39,902 nucleotides of DNA. Source: an uncultured Acidimicrobiales bacterium (lineage in GTDB: Bacteria > Actinomycetota > Acidimicrobiia > Acidimicrobiales > SHLQ01). Under the pieces are notes generated by a model. It did not search any database, was not told where the DNA came from, and was given only the letters and a program-made list of their open reading frames with translations. The translations under genes and the position numbers were made by a program. The stretch is taken from the NCBI GenBank assembly GCA_938040365.1, contig CALHXU010000213.1:1-39902 (forward strand), given 5' to 3'. Below, piece by piece: positions 3,155-33,973 of the stretch (its first letter is position 1; every line of letters begins with the position of its first letter).

Positions 3155-5818
3155 TTAGCTCCACGCCGAGGCTCGTTCGCGGTTCTTTTCGTTGACCAGC
3201 GGCAACTCGTTGCGCCACTCGCCGTCGTGAGACTGCATCGCTGCGGCTACAGCCCCTGCGGTTGGGACCAAACCAATCTCGCCGACACCCTTGATGCCGT
3301 ACGGACTGTTTGGCTCGGCCGACTCTACGAGGATCACATCGACAGGCGGCATGTCCTTCGGACGGATGATCGCGAGCGAACGCAACGTCTCGTTGAGCGG
3401 CTTGCCGTTCTCATCACATGGAAACCCTTCGCTCATCGCGTAGCCGAGGCCCATGTGCACCGCACCTTCGACCTGGCCTTCGCACAACAGCGGGTTGACC
3501 GCTTTGCCAACGTCGTGCGCCGCAACGACGTTCTCGATGTCGCCAGTTTCCGGATCGAGCACGACCATCTGCGCCGCATACCCAAAGGTCGAGTGGATGA
3601 TTGGATTCTCGAGCCCTTCGTTGAGCGAGTTCGTCCAATCGACTCGGTATTCACCTTCGTAGTCGACGCCGGGTTTGCAGCCATCGGCCACTGCCTTCTC
3701 ACACGCATCCTTCACCGAACCGGCTCCCATGAGCGTTCCGCGACTGCCGGTGGTCTGACCTGCGCCAAGCTCTCGGGTCGAGTCGACGATCACCCGAATG
3801 CGTTCGGCTGGAATATTCAACTCTTCGACGGCGACCTGGAGTGCAACGGTGTGCACGCCCTGGCCCATCTCGGTCCAACAGTGGCGAACCTCGACGATGT
3901 CGGAGTCCTCACGGAAGTGGATGACAGCCTTGGCAATCTCCTTAAAGCCATTGCCGAGGCCCGAGTTCTTGAGCCCGAGGCCAAGCCCGACCGGCTTTCC
4001 GGCCGCGACCGCTTCGTCATAGGCGGGCTTGACTGCGTCGAGGCACTCGCGCGCACCGAGGCACCCGTCGTCCATCTTCTGACCAGGCCCCCACACCACG
4101 CCGGGCGTGATCACGTTGCGGCTGCGAATCTCCCAGCCGCTAATGCCAGCCTTCTCGGCCAATCGGTCGAGCACGCCCTCCATGGCGAACTGGGCTTGGT
4201 TGGCGCCGAACCCACGGAACGCGCCACATACCGAATTGTTGGTGCGGGCAGCGACGGCTTCGACGTCGATGTTCTCGCACACATACGGACCAGACGCATG
4301 GCCTGCCGCACGTTCGAGGACCTTCATGCCGACCGACGCGTACGGGCCGGAATCGCCGAGCATCCGAACTCGAAGCCCAACGAGCTTGCCGTCGGCGTCA
4401 CATCCTGCCTCGTACTCCATCTTGATGGCGTGGCGCTTGGTGTGGACGAGGAACGACTCCTCACGCGAGAACGTCGTCTTCACCGGACGATCGAGCAACC
4501 ATGCGGCGAGCGCCGTCTGGCCTTGATTCGACATGTCGTCCTTGCCGCCGAACGCGCCTCCGTTGCTGACGAGTTCGGTAAACACGAGCGAGACATCGAT
4601 GTCGAGCATGCGGGCAATGTCGTTGCGATCATCCCAAATGCCCTGACCTCCCGAGTACACATAAAGCCGGCGCTCGTCGGAGGTTTCGGCCGAGTCGCCC
4701 ATGGTTCCGGTCGCTGGCAAAGGCTCGCCAGGAGCGATCGGAACGGCCAACGTGCTTTCGGGTTCGACAAAGGCATGGTCGATGCGCTGGGTTTGGAACG
4801 TCTCTCGAACCACGTGAGTCGCACCGGCCAAGCCAGCTTCGACATCGCCACGCGAATACGTCGAAGTCGACAGCACGTTGCCATCGAGGGTCCACACTGC
4901 GTCTTCATCCGACGCGACCGCTTCGGCCGGGTTGGTCATCGGCGTGAGCACGTCGTAGCTCACGTTGACGAGTTCGGCCGCCTTGCGCGCAATCGCCCGG
5001 GTTTCCGCGACGACGAGGGCCAGCACGTCACCCATGTAGCTCGTTCGCCCGCCAACCGGAATGAACGTTGGCCAATCCTTGTGGATGAGTCCACTGCGCA
5101 ACTCGCCGGGAACATCGGCGCCGGTCAGCACCCGCACCACACCGTCGACCGCTTCGGCAGCCGCCGTGTCGATGGCCGTAATGTTCGCCCGAGCATGTTC
5201 GGTGAGGTGCACCGCTCCGTGTAACAGCCCTGCGGGGACCATGTCATCGATGAACGGTCGGTCGCCCATTGCGAACTCGTGGGCTTCGTACTTGATGCCC
5301 CGGCTACCAACGCCACCGGGTTGGATGGCCACCGGCACTTCGCCGGCGGCGATGTCTTCGATCGCGTCGAGGATCTTGATGTAGCCCGTGCATCGGCACA
5401 GGTGCGCTCCGAGCAGGGCCGCAGCGTTCTCTCGGGTGAGATCGGCACCCTTCTTGTCGACCATTGCCTTGGTTCGCATCACGATGCCCGGCGTACAGAA
5501 TCCGCACTGCAGCGCGCCGTGCGCCGCGAACGCCGCCGACATTGCATCTCGCTCGGATGGGTCGACACCCTCGAGCGTGAGCACCTCGCTACCGGCGGTT
5601 TTCTCGAGCGACGTTTGGCAGGCGACGCGCGCCTTGCCATCGACCATCACCGTGCAACAACCACACTGTCCGCTCGGCGAGCACCCGTCCTTTGGCGACA
5701 TCACACCGAGCTCATCGCGCAGCGCAGTGAGGAGGTGCTCGTGGTGATCGCCGACACTGACCGGCGTGCCATTCAGGATGAAATTGACTGGCGTGCCATT
5801 CAAGATGAAGTCGGTCAT
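3155..5818 (-). CDS. Selenium-dependent-type xanthine dehydrogenase (2Fe-2S + Mo domains)
   Basis: The 887-residue molybdenum hydroxylase combines two N-terminal [2Fe-2S] domains with the molybdopterin domains in one chain. The first cluster region has C46, C52 and C54/C55 (CSPSGQCGCC) and C67; the second has CGFC (105-108) and CRC (141-143). The Mo part shows NGGAFGGKDD, a CGAFRGFGANQAQ segment and KGVGEIGLVP, which holds the catalytic Glu of xanthine-oxidase-family enzymes. The arrangement matches the Se-dependent xanthine dehydrogenase family and relates to XdhD. It should hydroxylate purines at the cytoplasmic Mo site. No FAD subunit is in the operon, so the electron acceptor is open; the YgfK-like protein is a candidate. 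The start overlaps the nitrilase stop (ATGA). The N-terminus contains a tandem repeat of a 9-residue segment. Confidence 0.87.
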   Translation of the reverse strand: MTDFILNGTPVNFILNGTPVSVGDHHEHLLTALRDELGVMSPKDGCSPSGQCGCCTVMVDGKARVACQTSLEKTAGSEVLTLEGVDPSERDAMSAAFAAHGALQCGFCTPGIVMRTKAMVDKKGADLTRENAAALLGAHLCRCTGYIKILDAIEDIAAGEVPVAIQPGGVGSRGIKYEAHEFAMGDRPFIDDMVPAGLLHGAVHLTEHARANITAIDTAAAEAVDGVVRVLTGADVPGELRSGLIHKDWPTFIPVGGRTSYMGDVLALVVAETRAIARKAAELVNVSYDVLTPMTNPAEAVASDEDAVWTLDGNVLSTSTYSRGDVEAGLAGATHVVRETFQTQRIDHAFVEPESTLAVPIAPGEPLPATGTMGDSAETSDERRLYVYSGGQGIWDDRNDIARMLDIDVSLVFTELVSNGGAFGGKDDMSNQGQTALAAWLLDRPVKTTFSREESFLVHTKRHAIKMEYEAGCDADGKLVGLRVRMLGDSGPYASVGMKVLERAAGHASGPYVCENIDVEAVAARTNNSVCGAFRGFGANQAQFAMEGVLDRLAEKAGISGWEIRSRNVITPGVVWGPGQKMDDGCLGARECLDAVKPAYDEAVAAGKPVGLGLGLKNSGLGNGFKEIAKAVIHFREDSDIVEVRHCWTEMGQGVHTVALQVAVEELNIPAERIRVIVDSTRELGAGQTTGSRGTLMGAGSVKDACEKAVADGCKPGVDYEGEYRVDWTNSLNEGLENPIIHSTFGYAAQMVVLDPETGDIENVVAAHDVGKAVNPLLCEGQVEGAVHMGLGYAMSEGFPCDENGKPLNETLRSLAIIRPKDMPPVDVILVESAEPNSPYGIKGVGEIGLVPTAGAVAAAMQSHDGEWRNELPLVNEKNRERASAWS
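5765..5818 (-). repeat. 27-bp tandem duplication at the start of the xanthine dehydrogenase gene
   Basis: The first 20 codons encode DFILNGTPV followed by NFILNGTPV. The two 27-base units are nearly identical; for example, GGCGTGCCATTCA occurs in both on the plus strand. The repeat is in frame and lengthens the first beta-hairpin of the 2Fe-2S domain by nine residues. An alternative reading is that the second copy is the ancestral N-terminus, but only the first copy has an ATG, and that ATG overlaps the upstream stop. Confidence 0.8.
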
Positions 5819-27533: not shown

Positions 27534-28508
27534 CTATCGGCGGGCCAGTAGGTCGCGCTGCGATGGCGGGAGGTAGTGGCCTGCTCGGTCACGATTCCGA
27601 CGCATGAAACTGTTGACCTTGGTGATTTGGGAGATCGAGAGGCTGCCGAGGCCGGTTACGCCGCGGAGCTGCCGTTTCTGATCGCTCTTCGGAGCAACTC
27701 GATGCGAGCCATCGTCGATCGGCCGAGCCGGGACACCGCTTCCGTCGAGTTCGGCAATGCCAGCAGCGTCGGTGAAAACTACCGAAGCGACGTTGCGCTG
27801 CTGGCCTTGCCGGGAGAGGTCGAGGAGCGAGACCTCTCTTGGATCGAACCACACGCTCGTCACCTCGTGGCCGCCCATGAAGGCGGCTTGGGTGGCGACG
27901 ACGCCCTCGACCTGACCTAGCTCCATCTCGCCCACCCAAAAGCAGGGCTGTGCGAAGTGGGCGAGTTGGAGGCGTTCACTGTTTTCTTGTTCGATGATCC
28001 GTAAGTACTCCGGGATTGGCCGCCCGGCCTTTGTGAGGGTCTCGATCATTCGCTCGACGAGCGGACCGGTCTCCCAGACTCGATCCTTTCTCGGAATGAT
28101 GTCGTTGGTGTTGGCATCGAGGAACCGCACGACTTGGAAATTCCATGCCGGCTCCCCAAAGGCCTTGAGCACCTGAGCGTCTCGACCTGGCGTGTTGTTG
28201 TGGATGAGGAGGGGGACGAAGGCTTCTTCGATTCCATCCACAACAACACGATTGGATAACACGTCCTTGCCGAACTGCTTACAGCCAGAGCAGCCAGGCA
28301 CTTCTTGGAACAGCGCAAAGATAGGCTTGCCCGACTCTTTGGACTTCTCGACCGCATCGTCGAGATCGCGAAGCCAGTCGACAACACCAACCTCAACGGG
28401 TTGTTTTGCCAAGGGTCTACTCAGAATCGACTTGAGATTCATGTCAACAACTCCAGCCTCGACAGGTTGTTTGGGAGCTTTCCTACCGAGGATCGTCTTC
28501 AAGTTCAT
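27534..28508 (-). CDS. Thioredoxin-like / MsrA-like fusion (VPGUxxT-family-like, Cys form)
   Basis: The 324-residue protein from ATG 28508 has residues ~45-165 forming a thioredoxin-like domain with FQEVPGCSGCKQFG (C73-S-G-C76). Its surroundings resemble the VPGUxxT family, in which the first Cys is often selenocysteine. Residues ~180-250 look MsrA-like: CFWVGEMELGQVEGV with C189, FMGGHEVTSVWFDP. A reductase or peroxide/methionine-sulfoxide repair role is likely but unproven. The N-terminus is a tandem repeat of 22 codons (MNLKTILGRK... and MNLKSILSRP...). A GGAG site precedes the second Met (28442), but the two copies differ mostly at synonymous sites, favouring translation of both. Confidence 0.72.
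   Translation of the reverse strand: MNLKTILGRKAPKQPVEAGVVDMNLKSILSRPLAKQPVEVGVVDWLRDLDDAVEKSKESGKPIFALFQEVPGCSGCKQFGKDVLSNRVVVDGIEEAFVPLLIHNNTPGRDAQVLKAFGEPAWNFQVVRFLDANTNDIIPRKDRVWETGPLVERMIETLTKAGRPIPEYLRIIEQENSERLQLAHFAQPCFWVGEMELGQVEGVVATQAAFMGGHEVTSVWFDPREVSLLDLSRQGQQRNVASVVFTDAAGIAELDGSGVPARPIDDGSHRVAPKSDQKRQLRGVTGLGSLSISQITKVNSFMRRNRDRAGHYLPPSQRDLLARR
28376..28508 (-). repeat. In-frame 66-bp tandem repeat at the start of the thioredoxin-like gene
   Basis: Two 22-codon units (28443-28508 and 28377-28442) encode MNLK(T/S)IL..., each ending QPVE(A/V)GVVD. The DNA copies differ at many third positions (AAC/AAT, ATC/ATT, CCT/CCC, GTC/GTT), while most of the protein is kept. Confidence 0.8.
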
Positions 28509-28538
28509 ATCAACGTAAACGCAAGCAACCAGCAACAC

Positions 28539-28844: not shown

Positions 28845-28848
28845 CTAA
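28792..28848. terminator. Nested inverted repeat at the PEP carboxylase 3' end
   Basis: Outer arms 28792-28810 and 28830-28848 (starting TTAGTTGC, ending GCAACTAA) match at 17 of 19 positions. An inner GCGGC-GGA-GCCGC hairpin lies at 28817-28829. The ppc stop (28845-28847, TAG) is within the outer arm. Likely acts as the ppc terminator on the minus strand, though no U-run is evident. Confidence 0.7.
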
Positions 28849-31613
28849 CCCGTATTCCGCAGGCCAGCGGCTACGCCGTTGATGCTGAGGAGGAAGGCGC
28901 GGCGGATGCGTCGGGCTGCGATTCCCTCGGGCGTATCACCGTCGGTATCGAAGGCGTCTGATCGCATCTCCTTGAGGAGGTTCACCTGGAGCACGTTGAG
29001 CGGGTCGAGATAGTTGTCTCGCACCTCGAGCGTGCGCCGAAGCACGGGTAGGTCCTCGAGTAGCTGGCTGCCGGTCACCGTCGAGATGGCATCGATCGTG
29101 CGTTGATGTTCCTCGCTGATCACCTCGAACAGGTGTTGATGTTCGGGCTCGACGAGCGCATCGACATAGGTGCGGGCAATGCCGAGGTCGGTCTTGGACA
29201 GGGTCATCTCGACGTTGGAAAGGAAGGTGCGGAAGAAACGCCACTTCGTGAACATCTCACCCATGGCTTCGCCGTGTCCCTGTTCGAGGGCGGCGTTGAG
29301 CCCGCTACCAACGCCGAACCAGCCGGGGACGATCTGGCGAGACTGGGTCCATCCAAATACCCACGGGATTGCTCGGAGGTCTTCGATGCCGCTCATGGCT
29401 CCCGAGCGTCGAGCGGGACGTGAACCAATGTTGAGCGCACCGAGTTCTTCGACAGGTGTGGACGTGGAGAAGTACGGCACGAGGCTCGGGTCCTCGATAA
29501 ACCTGCGGTACGCGGCAAAGGCGTTGCTCGAGACCATCTCCATGACGGCGCTCCACTGCTCTCGTGCTTCGGCACCGATGCGGCTTTCGGTATGCATGAC
29601 GGTGTGTTCGAGCATTGCCGAGTAGGCGAGGTCGAGGTTTCGGCGGGCGAGGCGCGGCCGGCTGTACTTGTCGGCGATGACCTCGCCTTGTTCGGTCGTC
29701 TTCATCAGGCCGGTGATGACGCCCGAAGGCTGTGCGAGGATCGCGTCGTGGGTTGGGCCACCGCCGCGGCCAACGGTTCCGCCTCGTCCGTGGAAGACCG
29801 GAATGTCGATGCCGTGACGGTCCGAGAGTTCCCGGACCGTGCGCAGCGCTTTGTGAATCTCCCATTGCGAGGTGGCGATTCCGCCGTCTTTGTTCGAGTC
29901 GGAGTAGCCAACCATGACCTCTTGGATGTTGCCGCGCAGTTCGACGATGCGGCGGTAGCTCGGGTCGGCGAGGAGCGCGTCCATCACTGGACCCATAGCG
30001 CGAAGGTCGCCGATCGTTTCGAACAGCGGCACGAATCCAATGCGTGCAATGTCTCGGCTGAGATCGATGAGACCGACCTCGCGGGCCAGCACTGCCGGTG
30101 CGAGGATGTCTTCGGGGCCTTGGGTCATCGAGACGATGTAGCTCTCCAGAATCGCATCGCCGAATCGGTCCATTTGTTGGCGCAGCGTGGTGACGAGTCC
30201 GAGTGCGTCGCCGAGGTCGGGCGTGCCGGCAGGAGCGAACGGTCGGGGATGTGCGAGTTCGGCGCTCAGCAGTTCGAACCGGCCGTCAGCATCTTCTGGG
30301 TATGGCGTGCCGATGCTTTCGAAGAGTTCAGCGAGCGCACCGTGGTGTTTGTCGGTGTGTTGACGAATGTCGAGGGTGGCGAGGTGAAAGCCGATCGTGT
30401 GGGCGAGGCGCCGAAGCGTTCGGAGCTTTCCGTCGGCGACCCGGTGCGCCTCGGAGGCTCGCAGCGACCCATCCATTAAATCGAGGTCTGCAATGAACTG
30501 GTCAGCGTTCTCGTAGGCAGCTTCGACCGTCGAGCCGTCGTTGAGAACCTGCCGTTCAGTGCTTGACAGACGGCCGTCGATGATCGAACAAACCAACCGA
30601 TACGGCTGGTCGGCAATGAGCGGCGAGAGGGAGGTAACCAAGCGGGGGAAGGCCGCTGACATCGTCTCGATCCATTCGCCAAGTTGGTCGTTGACCGGGC
30701 GAATCCGGCCCGACACGCTGAGGTCTGACGACAGCTCCTGCACACTCGAGCGAAGCAGGCGCAACGCCCGCTGGCGCTGCAACGTGAGCACTTCGTTGGT
30801 TACTTCGGCGGTGACGAACGGATTGCCATCACGGTCACCACCAACCCACGACCCAAAGCGGATCGGCGTGATGTCGTCTGGAAGTTCGATCGCTCGCTCT
30901 TCGGCGAGGTGGTCGAGATCGGACCATACGAGCGGAAGCGCGTTTGCGACGAGGCCCTCGACGTAGAAGATGATCGACCGGGCTTCGTCGACCGGCGTTG
31001 GCTTGACCGAACGAAGCTCGTTGCTCAACCAAAGCAAGTCGATGATCTCGCCGGTCCGCGAGTCGATACGCGCCTTCGACGCGGTGGTTGCCGTATCGCG
31101 AGTTCTGAGTAGCTCGGCGATTTCGGAGCGCTTCTCGAGTATTGAACGTCGAGATGCTTCGGTCGGGTGAGCGGTAAAGACGGGGCGATATTCGACGTTG
31201 GCCAGTCGTTCGGTCCAGGTGGCGGCGTCGATCCCCGCTTCGTCGGCCCGGGCGAACGTGTCATAGAGCTCGCCGCTGCCCTCGGTCTTTAGGCGGAGCT
31301 CCTCCACCCGGTGTACTTGCTCGGCGACGTTCGCGAGGTGAAAGTAGATCGTGAAGGCGCGGACGAGCAGAATTTTTTCGACCTCGGTCAGTCCCTCGAC
31401 ACGGGCTTCGAGTGCGGCGCGCGAGTTCGCGTCGCCTTCGCGTGTGTTGCGGGAGAGCGTCCGAATGTCCTCAACCAGATCAAAGAATTCAACGCTGACA
31501 TTTCGCTTTATCGTCTCACCGAGTTGATTCCCGAGACGCCGAATGTCGGCACGTAGTTCTTCGAGGCGCTGACCAGCAGCCGGCACGTTTTGAGGGGGGT
31601 TCGTCGCATCCAC
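28845..31613 (-). CDS. ppc: Phosphoenolpyruvate carboxylase
   Basis: The 922-residue enzyme has all the standard PEPC blocks: catalytic His in VFTAHPTEASRRSIL (about H149), GSWVGGDRDGNPFVT, VMVGYSDSNKDGG, FHGRGGTVGRGGGPTHDAIL with the essential Gly-rich/Arg loop, and a short C-terminus ending NTG. It carboxylates PEP to oxaloacetate in the cytoplasm, replenishing the TCA cycle. The start is GTG at 31613; an ATG at 31609 is out of frame. The length is normal for bacterial PEPC (~880-930). It shares direction with the upstream selenoprotein gene, 141 bases away, and probably has its own promoter. Convergent or operonic partners are not obvious. Confidence 0.95.
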   Translation of the reverse strand: MDATNPPQNVPAAGQRLEELRADIRRLGNQLGETIKRNVSVEFFDLVEDIRTLSRNTREGDANSRAALEARVEGLTEVEKILLVRAFTIYFHLANVAEQVHRVEELRLKTEGSGELYDTFARADEAGIDAATWTERLANVEYRPVFTAHPTEASRRSILEKRSEIAELLRTRDTATTASKARIDSRTGEIIDLLWLSNELRSVKPTPVDEARSIIFYVEGLVANALPLVWSDLDHLAEERAIELPDDITPIRFGSWVGGDRDGNPFVTAEVTNEVLTLQRQRALRLLRSSVQELSSDLSVSGRIRPVNDQLGEWIETMSAAFPRLVTSLSPLIADQPYRLVCSIIDGRLSSTERQVLNDGSTVEAAYENADQFIADLDLMDGSLRASEAHRVADGKLRTLRRLAHTIGFHLATLDIRQHTDKHHGALAELFESIGTPYPEDADGRFELLSAELAHPRPFAPAGTPDLGDALGLVTTLRQQMDRFGDAILESYIVSMTQGPEDILAPAVLAREVGLIDLSRDIARIGFVPLFETIGDLRAMGPVMDALLADPSYRRIVELRGNIQEVMVGYSDSNKDGGIATSQWEIHKALRTVRELSDRHGIDIPVFHGRGGTVGRGGGPTHDAILAQPSGVITGLMKTTEQGEVIADKYSRPRLARRNLDLAYSAMLEHTVMHTESRIGAEAREQWSAVMEMVSSNAFAAYRRFIEDPSLVPYFSTSTPVEELGALNIGSRPARRSGAMSGIEDLRAIPWVFGWTQSRQIVPGWFGVGSGLNAALEQGHGEAMGEMFTKWRFFRTFLSNVEMTLSKTDLGIARTYVDALVEPEHQHLFEVISEEHQRTIDAISTVTGSQLLEDLPVLRRTLEVRDNYLDPLNVLQVNLLKEMRSDAFDTDGDTPEGIAARRIRRAFLLSINGVAAGLRNTG

Positions 31614-31730: not shown

Positions 31731-31777
31731 TCAATCCCACGGGGACTGTGACCTTCAGTCCCACGGGGACTGTCCCC
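31731..31777. repeat. Direct repeat of a 19-bp unit with GGGGACTGTCCCC palindrome
   Basis: TCAATCCCACGGGGACTGT (31731-31749) and TCAGTCCCACGGGGACTGT (31755-31773) are direct repeats with one mismatch, 24 bases apart. The second copy extends into the 13-base near-palindrome GGGGACTGTCCCC (31765-31777). The second copy encodes the last residues and stop of the selenoprotein on the minus strand. Confidence 0.8.
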
Positions 31778-32684
31778 AGCGAGAGCTCGCCTCGCCTGTG
31801 GCAACCTGTTCGCCGTGCCTCGCAATGGCCGCTTCTCGGTCTTTCACCTCTTGATATTGCGGCGTCTCGAACCGTTCGGTTCGGTGATCGACCAACTCGC
31901 GCGCTTCTTCCTTCCACGGCTCGCCCCACTCGTGGCTGAGCGGAAGAATCGTTCCGGGTTCGCTATCTGTTGCGATGAGCGAGAGGGCCTGACGGGCAAT
32001 GTCGAGTTGGACATCGCTTCGATGTGGCGGGCCTGCGGTGTTGCCCAGCGGGAAGTCGGTGAAGACCGCCCGGGGCGGACGAACCGACTCGGTGATCGAC
32101 CACGCAGAGGTCACCGAGGTCGTCACGATCCCTTCGGTCTCGAGTGCTCGTGCGATCAGCCCAACTGACTGATGGCAGACAGGTCAAACCGGCACGAGCA
32201 GCGCAATGTCTGCTTCGAGTTCCTTTACCCGTTCTACGAGTGCGGGAATGAGCGTCTCGCCGAGTCGTCGCTGGCTGTAGATGCCGCCCATGAATGTGAG
32301 CCCGACGGATGCAACGCTGCCGACGACACCCTCTTGTTCGAGCGAGCGCAGCGCTTCGATGGGGAAGACCGCGTTGATGTCGCTTCGGGCCGACGTCTCG
32401 TCGTAGGCAAAGTGAGTAACCCGAAGTTGATTTGTCGGCGTGCTCATCGGCACTTCGCGAAAGGTGAGGTCGTCCTTGTGGGCAAAGCCGACGTCGCCAA
32501 GGGCATAGACACCTCCGGATGCGAGAAGGACGACCTTGCTCTCGGCCAGCGGCTTTGTCGGTTCAGCGAAGGGAACCGGCTCGTTCGAATTATCAGCCCA
32601 TCGATACTCGGCGTATCCCAAGGAGGTGTAGGTGTCGCGGGTTACCGCGATGTAGTCGACCGGATCGTCAGGCATCTGCGTCAT
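31755..32684 (-). CDS. GrdB/PrdB-family selenoprotein with in-frame UGA (Sec167)
   Basis: The 309-residue protein is obtained only if the TGA at 32184-32186 is read as selenocysteine. Upstream codons encode ...VKELEADIALLVPV, and downstream codons continue in the same frame with PVCHQSVGLIARALETEG, giving U167-P-V-C170. The VPVUPVCHQ-GLIARALE pattern is that of the selenoprotein B family (glycine/sarcosine/betaine and D-proline reductases). The protein is shorter than true GrdB (~440), matching short 'selenoprotein B family' proteins of unknown function. The U-x-x-C pair implies redox or reductive chemistry. A stem-loop 7 bases after the UGA fits a bacterial SECIS. The start is ATG 32684. No GrdA/GrdC partners are nearby, so a Stickland reductase role is unlikely. 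The last residues WGQSPWD come from a repeat element. Confidence 0.88.
32152..32176 (-). promoter_or_regulatory. Candidate bacterial SECIS stem-loop
   Basis: On the minus strand, 7 bases after the UGA, GCCATCAG (32176-32169) pairs with CTGATCGC (32159-32152) with one mismatch around a 9-base loop UCAGUUGGG. Position and size suit a bacterial SECIS, which lies within the coding region just after UGA and is bound by SelB. The fold was judged by eye. Confidence 0.55.
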
Positions 32685-32734: not shown

Positions 32735-33973
32735 TCAGTCAGTCCGAGCCACACCGTCATCGCCGGAGCGTTGGACGGTCTTGGCCGACTTGACCGATCG
32801 ATGCACCACGAACTTTGCGTTGGAGGCCAAGGTGTCGGTTCCACCGAAGATCTTCTTGAGCTTCGCGTGGTAGGCCAGGTGCCGGTTGCCAACGACGATG
32901 AGGGTTCCGCCGATGCGAAGGGCCTTATGGGCGTCGACGAACATCGACCACGCCGTGTCGTCACCGAGCACTCGGTCGTCATGGAAAGGCGGGTTCACGA
33001 CGACGAGATCGACGCTTCTCGGGTCGACGACGTTGGCGAGGCGGTGGGCATGGTGGAATTCAACCGGGGTTGCTGACGACCCCGAAGTTGTCAGGTGGTG
33101 CTCCCACGATTGGCGAGCTGCAGCGATTGCAAGCATCGAGTCATCGACAGCGATAATACGGTTCGTGATTCCGGCCCCGTTCAGCAGGCTCGCGACTCGA
33201 AGTCCGATCACCCCGTTGCCACAGCCAAGATCGACCATAGTGAGCGGATCTTCTGCCGATACCGAAACGTCGATCTGTTCTTCGATGTTGCGGACGGTGT
33301 CGAGGAGCAGGCTTGTGCCTGGGTCGAGTTTGTTCGGCGAGAAGCCGCCGCCGTAATTGGTGAGCAAAAGCCCGTATGCCTTCCACACCTTGGGCCACGG
33401 ATTGAGGCCTGGATCGTATGCAGCGCTGTCAATCGCAACACTGATGAGGCGCGCTTTCTTCTTTGCGAGTGATGTCGTCGCTTCACCGATGGTCTCTTCG
33501 ATTACCTCGATCGTCGAACCCTGAATGTGTTTGGCCATCGCGGCCGCGACGATCTGACTACTCGGGTTCACGTGTGGACGTAGCCAGTGCAAAATCTCAA
33601 CGAGGTGTGCAGTCGACTTTGGAATCTTGATCACGACGAGGTCGAACGTCGACACCTCGGTGTGCGCATCGGTGATTGTTGCGAAGTCGACCCGCGGCTT
33701 CTCGTTTCGTTCGAGGTTCTCAGTTATTGCGTGGCGTTGGGCCGCCGACTCGGCAACGACGGTGGGTGCCCAATCAGCTAGGCCACAACTGAGCGCCCCG
33801 AAGCTATCCCCGATGATCAGCACTGAACGCGGGGCAGAGCTGTTCTCGAACACTTCCGCGAGGTGATCGAGCACATACTCGTCGGCCGCGTCCCACGCGC
33901 GCAGTGGCCGTTTGCCAGCGCGCGGAACCCGGGTGAGTTCGAAGTGGTGGCCAGAAACGGTCAGCGTTTCCAT
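32735..33973 (-). CDS. rlmG: 23S rRNA (guanine-N2) methyltransferase RlmG-like
   Basis: The 412-residue protein has two methyltransferase-like halves. The N-terminal half is a degenerate domain (VLIIGDSFGALSCGLADW). The C-terminal half is the active one: SAM motif I VDLGCGNGVIGLRVA, then catalytic VVNPPFH and a final GGTLIVVGNRHLAYH. The duplicated architecture and NPPF motif are typical of RlmG/RsmC, which modify a guanine N2 in rRNA; RlmG (G1835 of 23S) is the better match by order and length, though RsmC is related. It is 12 bases downstream of the AAA ATPase gene on the same strand and upstream of the selenoprotein gene (50 bases). Confidence 0.82.
   Translation of the reverse strand: METLTVSGHHFELTRVPRAGKRPLRAWDAADEYVLDHLAEVFENSSAPRSVLIIGDSFGALSCGLADWAPTVVAESAAQRHAITENLERNEKPRVDFATITDAHTEVSTFDLVVIKIPKSTAHLVEILHWLRPHVNPSSQIVAAAMAKHIQGSTIEVIEETIGEATTSLAKKKARLISVAIDSAAYDPGLNPWPKVWKAYGLLLTNYGGGFSPNKLDPGTSLLLDTVRNIEEQIDVSVSAEDPLTMVDLGCGNGVIGLRVASLLNGAGITNRIIAVDDSMLAIAAARQSWEHHLTTSGSSATPVEFHHAHRLANVVDPRSVDLVVVNPPFHDDRVLGDDTAWSMFVDAHKALRIGGTLIVVGNRHLAYHAKLKKIFGGTDTLASNAKFVVHRSVKSAKTVQRSGDDGVARTD

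Follow-up and report, generated by a model that had tools for sequence, protein, structure and literature searches.

A gene from an uncultured Acidimicrobiales bacterium is, by comparative evidence, a single gene with an internal UGA, and this codon is very probably decoded as selenocysteine, a reading well supported by sequence. Its PrdB-like product most likely acts as a stand-alone selenol/thiol reductase. The gene (frame 32684..31755, reverse strand) lies in a stretch of 39,902 nucleotides, called the window throughout, which belongs to a 3.63 Mb genome assembly of 277 contigs and 90.7% completeness. The coordinates of the gene, its recoded codon, a candidate selenocysteine insertion (SECIS) hairpin and the two adjoining genes are given in Table 1.

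Table 1. Position and basis of the features in and around the PrdB-like gene of the window.
Feature	Position	Strand	Description
PrdB-like selenoprotein gene	31755..32684	-	309 aa, Sec at residue 167
In-frame UGA, predicted Sec codon (U167) of the U-P-V-C-H-Q motif	32184..32186	-	TGA/Cys conservation; selC, selA, selB and selD in the genome
Candidate bacterial SECIS hairpin	32155..32173	-	7-bp stem AUCAGUC/GGCUGAU, loop AGUUG; pairing and covariation
RlmG-like rRNA methyltransferase gene	32735..33973	-	RlmG model 223.8 bits, cut-off 468 not reached
Phosphoenolpyruvate carboxylase-like gene	28845..31613	-	Product named by reading the sequence, not by model search

A simple ORF listing cuts the gene into two, showing how ordinary ORF calling splits and truncates genes of this kind. 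The original prediction that the two apparent genes are one was borne out, the same frame being open across the UGA and TGA or Cys being conserved at that codon in 51 of 51 relatives. The prediction had counted 19 open codons after the TGA; the open frame is real but its length was underestimated, since it runs for 142 codons, from 32186..32184 to a TGA at 31757..31755. The residues UPVCHQSVGLIARALE after the UGA are present as described, with the U-x-x-C motif intact. The start was placed at ATG 32684, with ATG 32675 as the alternative. Because conservation stops near residue 297, the TGA at 31757..31755 was taken as the real stop, and the idea that it and one more TGA further 3′ are also Sec codons was rejected on the same ground. 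Overlapping or following this stop codon is a near-identical pair of palindromes, CAGTCCCCGTGGGAYTG, at 31732-31748 and 31756-31772 (reverse strand), which are REP-like or terminator-like and occur nowhere else in the window. Rfam gave no match in the window at gathering thresholds. Two window ORFs, at about 5760-5818 and at 28400-28538 (both reverse strand), carry short in-frame N-terminal duplications (FILNGTPVNFILNGTPV; MNLKTILGRKAPKQPVE / MNLKSILSRPLAKQPVE).

The 51 relatives came from a search across 84,980 species genomes. At the UGA position 43 have TGA and eight have a Cys codon (TGC or TGT), while TAA and TAG do not occur, and the TGA-type relatives span Actinomycetota, Chloroflexota, Gammaproteobacteria, Myxococcota and Binatota. 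All 51 stay in frame past the Sec codon, the 43 with TGA for at least 100 conserved codons. The alignment has 27 invariant columns, among them U/C167, P168, C170, H171 and Q172, and P-V-U/C-P-V-C-H-Q is almost invariant. In the near relatives TGA or Cys is retained and the sequence beyond it is conserved; an ordinary stop lacking such sequence was not seen among them. NG86 omega values against nine relatives were about 0.14-0.30 before the UGA and 0.08-0.37 after it, indicating that purifying selection acts both upstream and downstream, in agreement with the good coding quality noted earlier on both sides. The NCBIfam PrdB model (TIGR04483) scores the joined protein at 147.6 bits, compared with 93.7 for the first half and 16.6 for the second. 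Conservation of UGA or Cys, conservation of the protein across the codon, the omega values and the joined-model score together exclude a chance open frame, and a conserved in-frame UGA with Cys as the alternative residue is the pattern of a bacterial selenoprotein.

The candidate SECIS hairpin begins 11 nt past the UGA. In the Sec relatives, columns 14-20 pair with columns 26-32, numbered from the U of the UGA, around a loop of 5 nt that reads AGUUG or CGUGG in most of them, which puts G and U at loop positions two and three. Stem pairing was 97.1% across 44 Sec sequences, compared with 69.1% (sd 2.1, maximum 75.0%, 500 trials) in shuffles that swapped codons for synonymous ones drawn from the same genes. 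In the eight Cys relatives pairing falls to 80%, and the pair at offsets 18/26 is broken in six of them. Over 32 aligned sequences the covariation score was 0.224 versus 0.089 in shuffles (0/500); the covarying exchanges are UA/AU and UA/CG, and shifting the partner strand abolishes pairing. The number of double-change pairs in the same 32 sequences did not exceed that in shuffles because five stem pairs are invariant. Taken alone, the post-UGA region of the window folds no better than shuffles (z = 0.02), so the evidence for the element is comparative; on that evidence a candidate SECIS stands directly 3′ of the UGA, where a bacterial selenoprotein gene carries its hairpin.

The genome also encodes the machinery for selenocysteine. 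The prediction of selA, selB, selC and selD was confirmed, each gene scoring above its curated cut-off as expected for the host of a bacterial selenoprotein: tRNA-Sec with anticodon UCA (63.6 bits, cut-off 47), which ARAGORN also calls, selA (386 bits, cut-off 268) adjoining selB (266 bits, cut-off 242) on contig 61, and selD (259 bits, cut-off 125). In a class-wide test of 247 genomes, a family member was present in 73, of which 71 have a TGA-containing form. tRNA-Sec was found in 66 of these 71 genomes and in 100 of the 176 others (Fisher p = 5e-9, kinship ignored); it was not detected at the threshold used in the remaining five. Both class genomes whose family member has no stop lack tRNA-Sec, and in one of them (G158) the Sec position of the protein, L089, is Ala (PVAPMC). 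The host had been described as a probable aerobic actinomycete, and this description fits: the genome encodes a haem-copper oxidase (cytochrome oxidase subunit I), in line with aerobic life, and the closest orthologs of the PrdB-like protein are from uncultured Acidimicrobiales.

Membership in the superfamily is supported by a Pfam GRDB (PF07355) match of 31 bits against a cut-off of 22. The protein had been called GrdB/PrdB-like, which holds at this level, yet it is nearer PrdB: as judged by profile scores it is PrdB-like rather than GrdB-like, with 147.6 bits for PrdB and at most 39 bits for the GrdB, GrdF and GrdH models of glycine, sarcosine and betaine reductase (cut-offs 600-800). Only the C-terminal half of those models is matched, and the first ~200 model positions have no counterpart in the window protein. 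In a maximum-likelihood tree the Bacillota PrdB proteins form one clade (100/99) with the motif UGTCHR (CGTCHR in Paraclostridium), and a 55-row clade (100/94) contains the window-type proteins, a second type represented by L072 and proteobacterial Cys proteins, all with UPVCHQ or CPVCHQ. By tree and motif, the window protein is outside the clade of PrdA-adjacent PrdB.

L072 is a second PrdB-like Sec protein of the window's genome (contig 206, 1126-1962, reverse strand; 278 aa, motif UPVCHQT). Its gene carries the same hairpin with compensating changes (ACCAGAC-CGUGA-GUCUGGU) and adjoins a purK-like gene. The protein is nearer to the proteobacterial Cys forms, its exact position in the tree being unsure because of a long branch. 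The intergenic stretch beside it, at about 900-1140, contains repeated palindromes of the GGGGTCTGACCC type, of which the window has none.

The original prediction that the protein has no GrdA or PrdA partner agrees with the searches. Neither GrdA (PF04723) nor the GrdE/PrdA family (PF09338) was found in the window's genome, and since that genome is 90.7% complete and in 277 contigs a partner could sit in a gap, but the absence does recur across the class: of the 73 genomes that have a family member, 62 contain neither GrdA nor GrdE. The model for PrdA (TIGR04480), the partner that goes with PrdB in D-proline reductase, had no match in the window's genome and passed its cut-off in 0 of 247 class genomes, where it cross-matches the PF09338 genomes below cut-off and no true PrdA serves as positive control. 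The counts of 62 of 73 and 0 of 247 make the standard functional name of the family doubtful. On plasmids of Enterococcus, Ligilactobacillus and Terrisporobacter prdA adjoins prdB, and the prdB of Peptoclostridium is preceded by an unlisted frame that resembles PrdA by eye. The GrdA and PF09338 models match one shared set of 15 of the 247 genomes (for example, L093-L098), with an in-frame TGA in GrdA. As the genomes with GrdA and those with GrdE coincide exactly, Acidimicrobiia probably have a glycine/betaine-type reductase.

The AlphaFold2 model of the PrdB-like protein (pLDDT 92, pTM 0.91) has a Rossmann-like alpha/beta fold, for which a fold search returned only generic Rossmann-like PDB entries (best Z 8.4). 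Among solved structures no sequence relative was found at E values up to 0.1, and profile hits were at chance level. In the model U167 lies between the strand 160-164 and the helix 168-183, whose first turn contains Cys170. A Cys or Sec at a strand-helix junction is a common geometry of redox CxxC and UxxC motifs, and in PrdB and GrdB the Sec is the attacking nucleophile.

With no pyruvoyl partner, D-proline cleavage in its known form is unlikely, and a role as a stand-alone selenol/thiol reductase appears the most likely. In the mechanism that we propose, Sec-tRNA would be made by SelA and SelD, SelB would recognise the candidate hairpin directly 3′ of the UGA, and the ribosome would read the internal UGA as Sec with SelB-carried tRNA-Sec(UCA). 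Sec167, at the helix start after the beta strand, would then attack a small electrophilic substrate as the nucleophile, Cys170 would resolve the Sec adduct as a selenenyl sulfide, and a thioredoxin-like donor would reduce the selenenyl sulfide; both the substrate and the donor are guesses. As a whole, the proposal of a reductase that needs no pyruvoyl (PrdA/GrdE) subunit, uses Sec167, Cys170 and a thioredoxin-like donor in this way and is not a D-proline reductase is a tentative one, held at slightly less than even confidence.

Several other readings were weighed. It is exceedingly improbable that the TGA is an ordinary stop, whether between two separate genes or in a nonsense-mutated pseudogene: the split made by plain ORF listing and the unremarkable single-sequence folding downstream would fit such a stop, but 43 relatives from five groups have TGA at this very codon, Cys is the sole alternative among the 51, purifying selection continues downstream and the full Sec machinery is in the genome. 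The window protein might instead be the PrdB subunit of a reductase of D-proline, or of another amino acid, whose pyruvoyl subunit is encoded elsewhere or is absent from the assembly. PrdB (TIGR04483; Clostridia, Enterococcus) is its best NCBIfam model, and with the PrdB of Bacillota the window protein shares ~29-36% core identity and a UxxC motif that continues with H and then Q or R (C-H-[QR] after Sec). The score, however, is below the equivalog cut-off of 300, the window's genome has no PF09338 or PrdA match even though PF09338 finds 15 class-mates, and PrdA fails its cut-off throughout the class. The PrdB genes of the three plasmid-bearing genera adjoin prdA, whereas the window gene has no PrdA, PrdC or PrdD neighbour, and its product differs from the separate Bacillota clade in having UPVCHQ in place of UGTCHR and longer N- and C-terminal parts. 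We consider a PrdB subunit very unlikely.

The stand-alone reductase could also be of a narrower form, with a part in the metabolism of acyl-CoA or xenobiotic carboxylates; it might, for example, reductively detach a leaving group from a small acid, on the model of the GrdB-like FarB proposed to act on fluoroacetate. Such a role seems improbable, if clearly less so than a PrdB subunit. Genes of CoA thioester metabolism do stand beside family members in several separate clades (MenB at about a dozen loci, thiolase and CoA-transferase family III), the chemistry of the GrdB family is Sec attack on activated carbon, and cleavage of a C-F bond has been linked to a GrdB-like protein (PMC10838667), but FarB comes with a GrdE-like partner and genes of acyl-CoA metabolism are frequent in genomes of this sort. 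The neighbours, moreover, vary by clade. In the window the RlmG-like gene lies just upstream and the carboxylase-like gene downstream, both on the same strand as the PrdB-like gene and both conserved as neighbours in the nearest clade only, where the cluster with the carboxylase-like gene recurs at nine loci. Elsewhere menB, CoA-transferase III, thiolase or an F420-type luciferase-like oxidoreductase takes their place, and Gammaproteobacteria have other genes again. An operon logic of one pathway was therefore rejected, as clade-specific neighbours support no single pathway; the hint that they give, of CoA thioester metabolism, comes from several clades, the window's own not among them.

As a kind, PrdB selenoproteins are already in the literature as abundant marine families. 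In the Sargasso Sea set a UxxC PrdB ranked third in abundance among known selenoprotein families, with 42 genes (PMC1088965); the GOS survey lists 235 PrdB selenoprotein members, assigned to pfam07355, and its main text makes no mention of PrdA (PMC2398784); in a 2016 survey, 110 organisms account for 131 proline reductase selenoproteins (PMC5029168). Like the window protein, the Sargasso Sea and GOS proteins are UxxC selenoproteins; they are very abundant in surface ocean metagenomes. The window type is found in marine gammaproteobacterial genomes, and the marine 'PrdB' may belong to the same subfamily. Cys proteins of Proteobacteria annotated as 'glycine/sarcosine/betaine reductase selenoprotein B family protein' resemble the window protein in being encoded by stand-alone genes, with C-P-[VI]-C-H-Q and 34-41% identity; they differ in having Cys for Sec and a SECIS stem that is incompletely kept. 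A limited literature search found no paper on the PrdB-like family in Acidimicrobiia. Added here are the gene in the window's genome, the evidence for its SECIS, the partner-free status across the class and the split from authentic PrdB. The evidence is evenly poised on a broader view, in which the window type, like the sister subfamilies of Acidimicrobiia, would do without partner subunits: all would be selenoenzymes of aerobes, turning the Sec chemistry of GrdB and PrdB to an undescribed reduction, and the marine 'PrdB' would have been misnamed as D-proline reductase since 2005. The question matters because UxxC 'PrdB', called proline reductase, is among the commonest selenoproteins of ocean metagenomes, and a small stand-alone protein is tractable for expression and assay.

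Three further Acidimicrobiia subfamilies have variant motifs. L083-L086 have UPMCHR and end in W-[LI]-UGA, after which L083 and L084 contain one further in-frame TGA; the terminal UGA is probably a normal stop, a C-terminal Sec being the alternative. L087, L090 and L089 form a UPLCTR subfamily whose long C-terminal extension has no Pfam match, L087 and L090 being 378 aa long. L091 and L092 belong to another, whose UPDCC motif contains an adjacent Cys pair.
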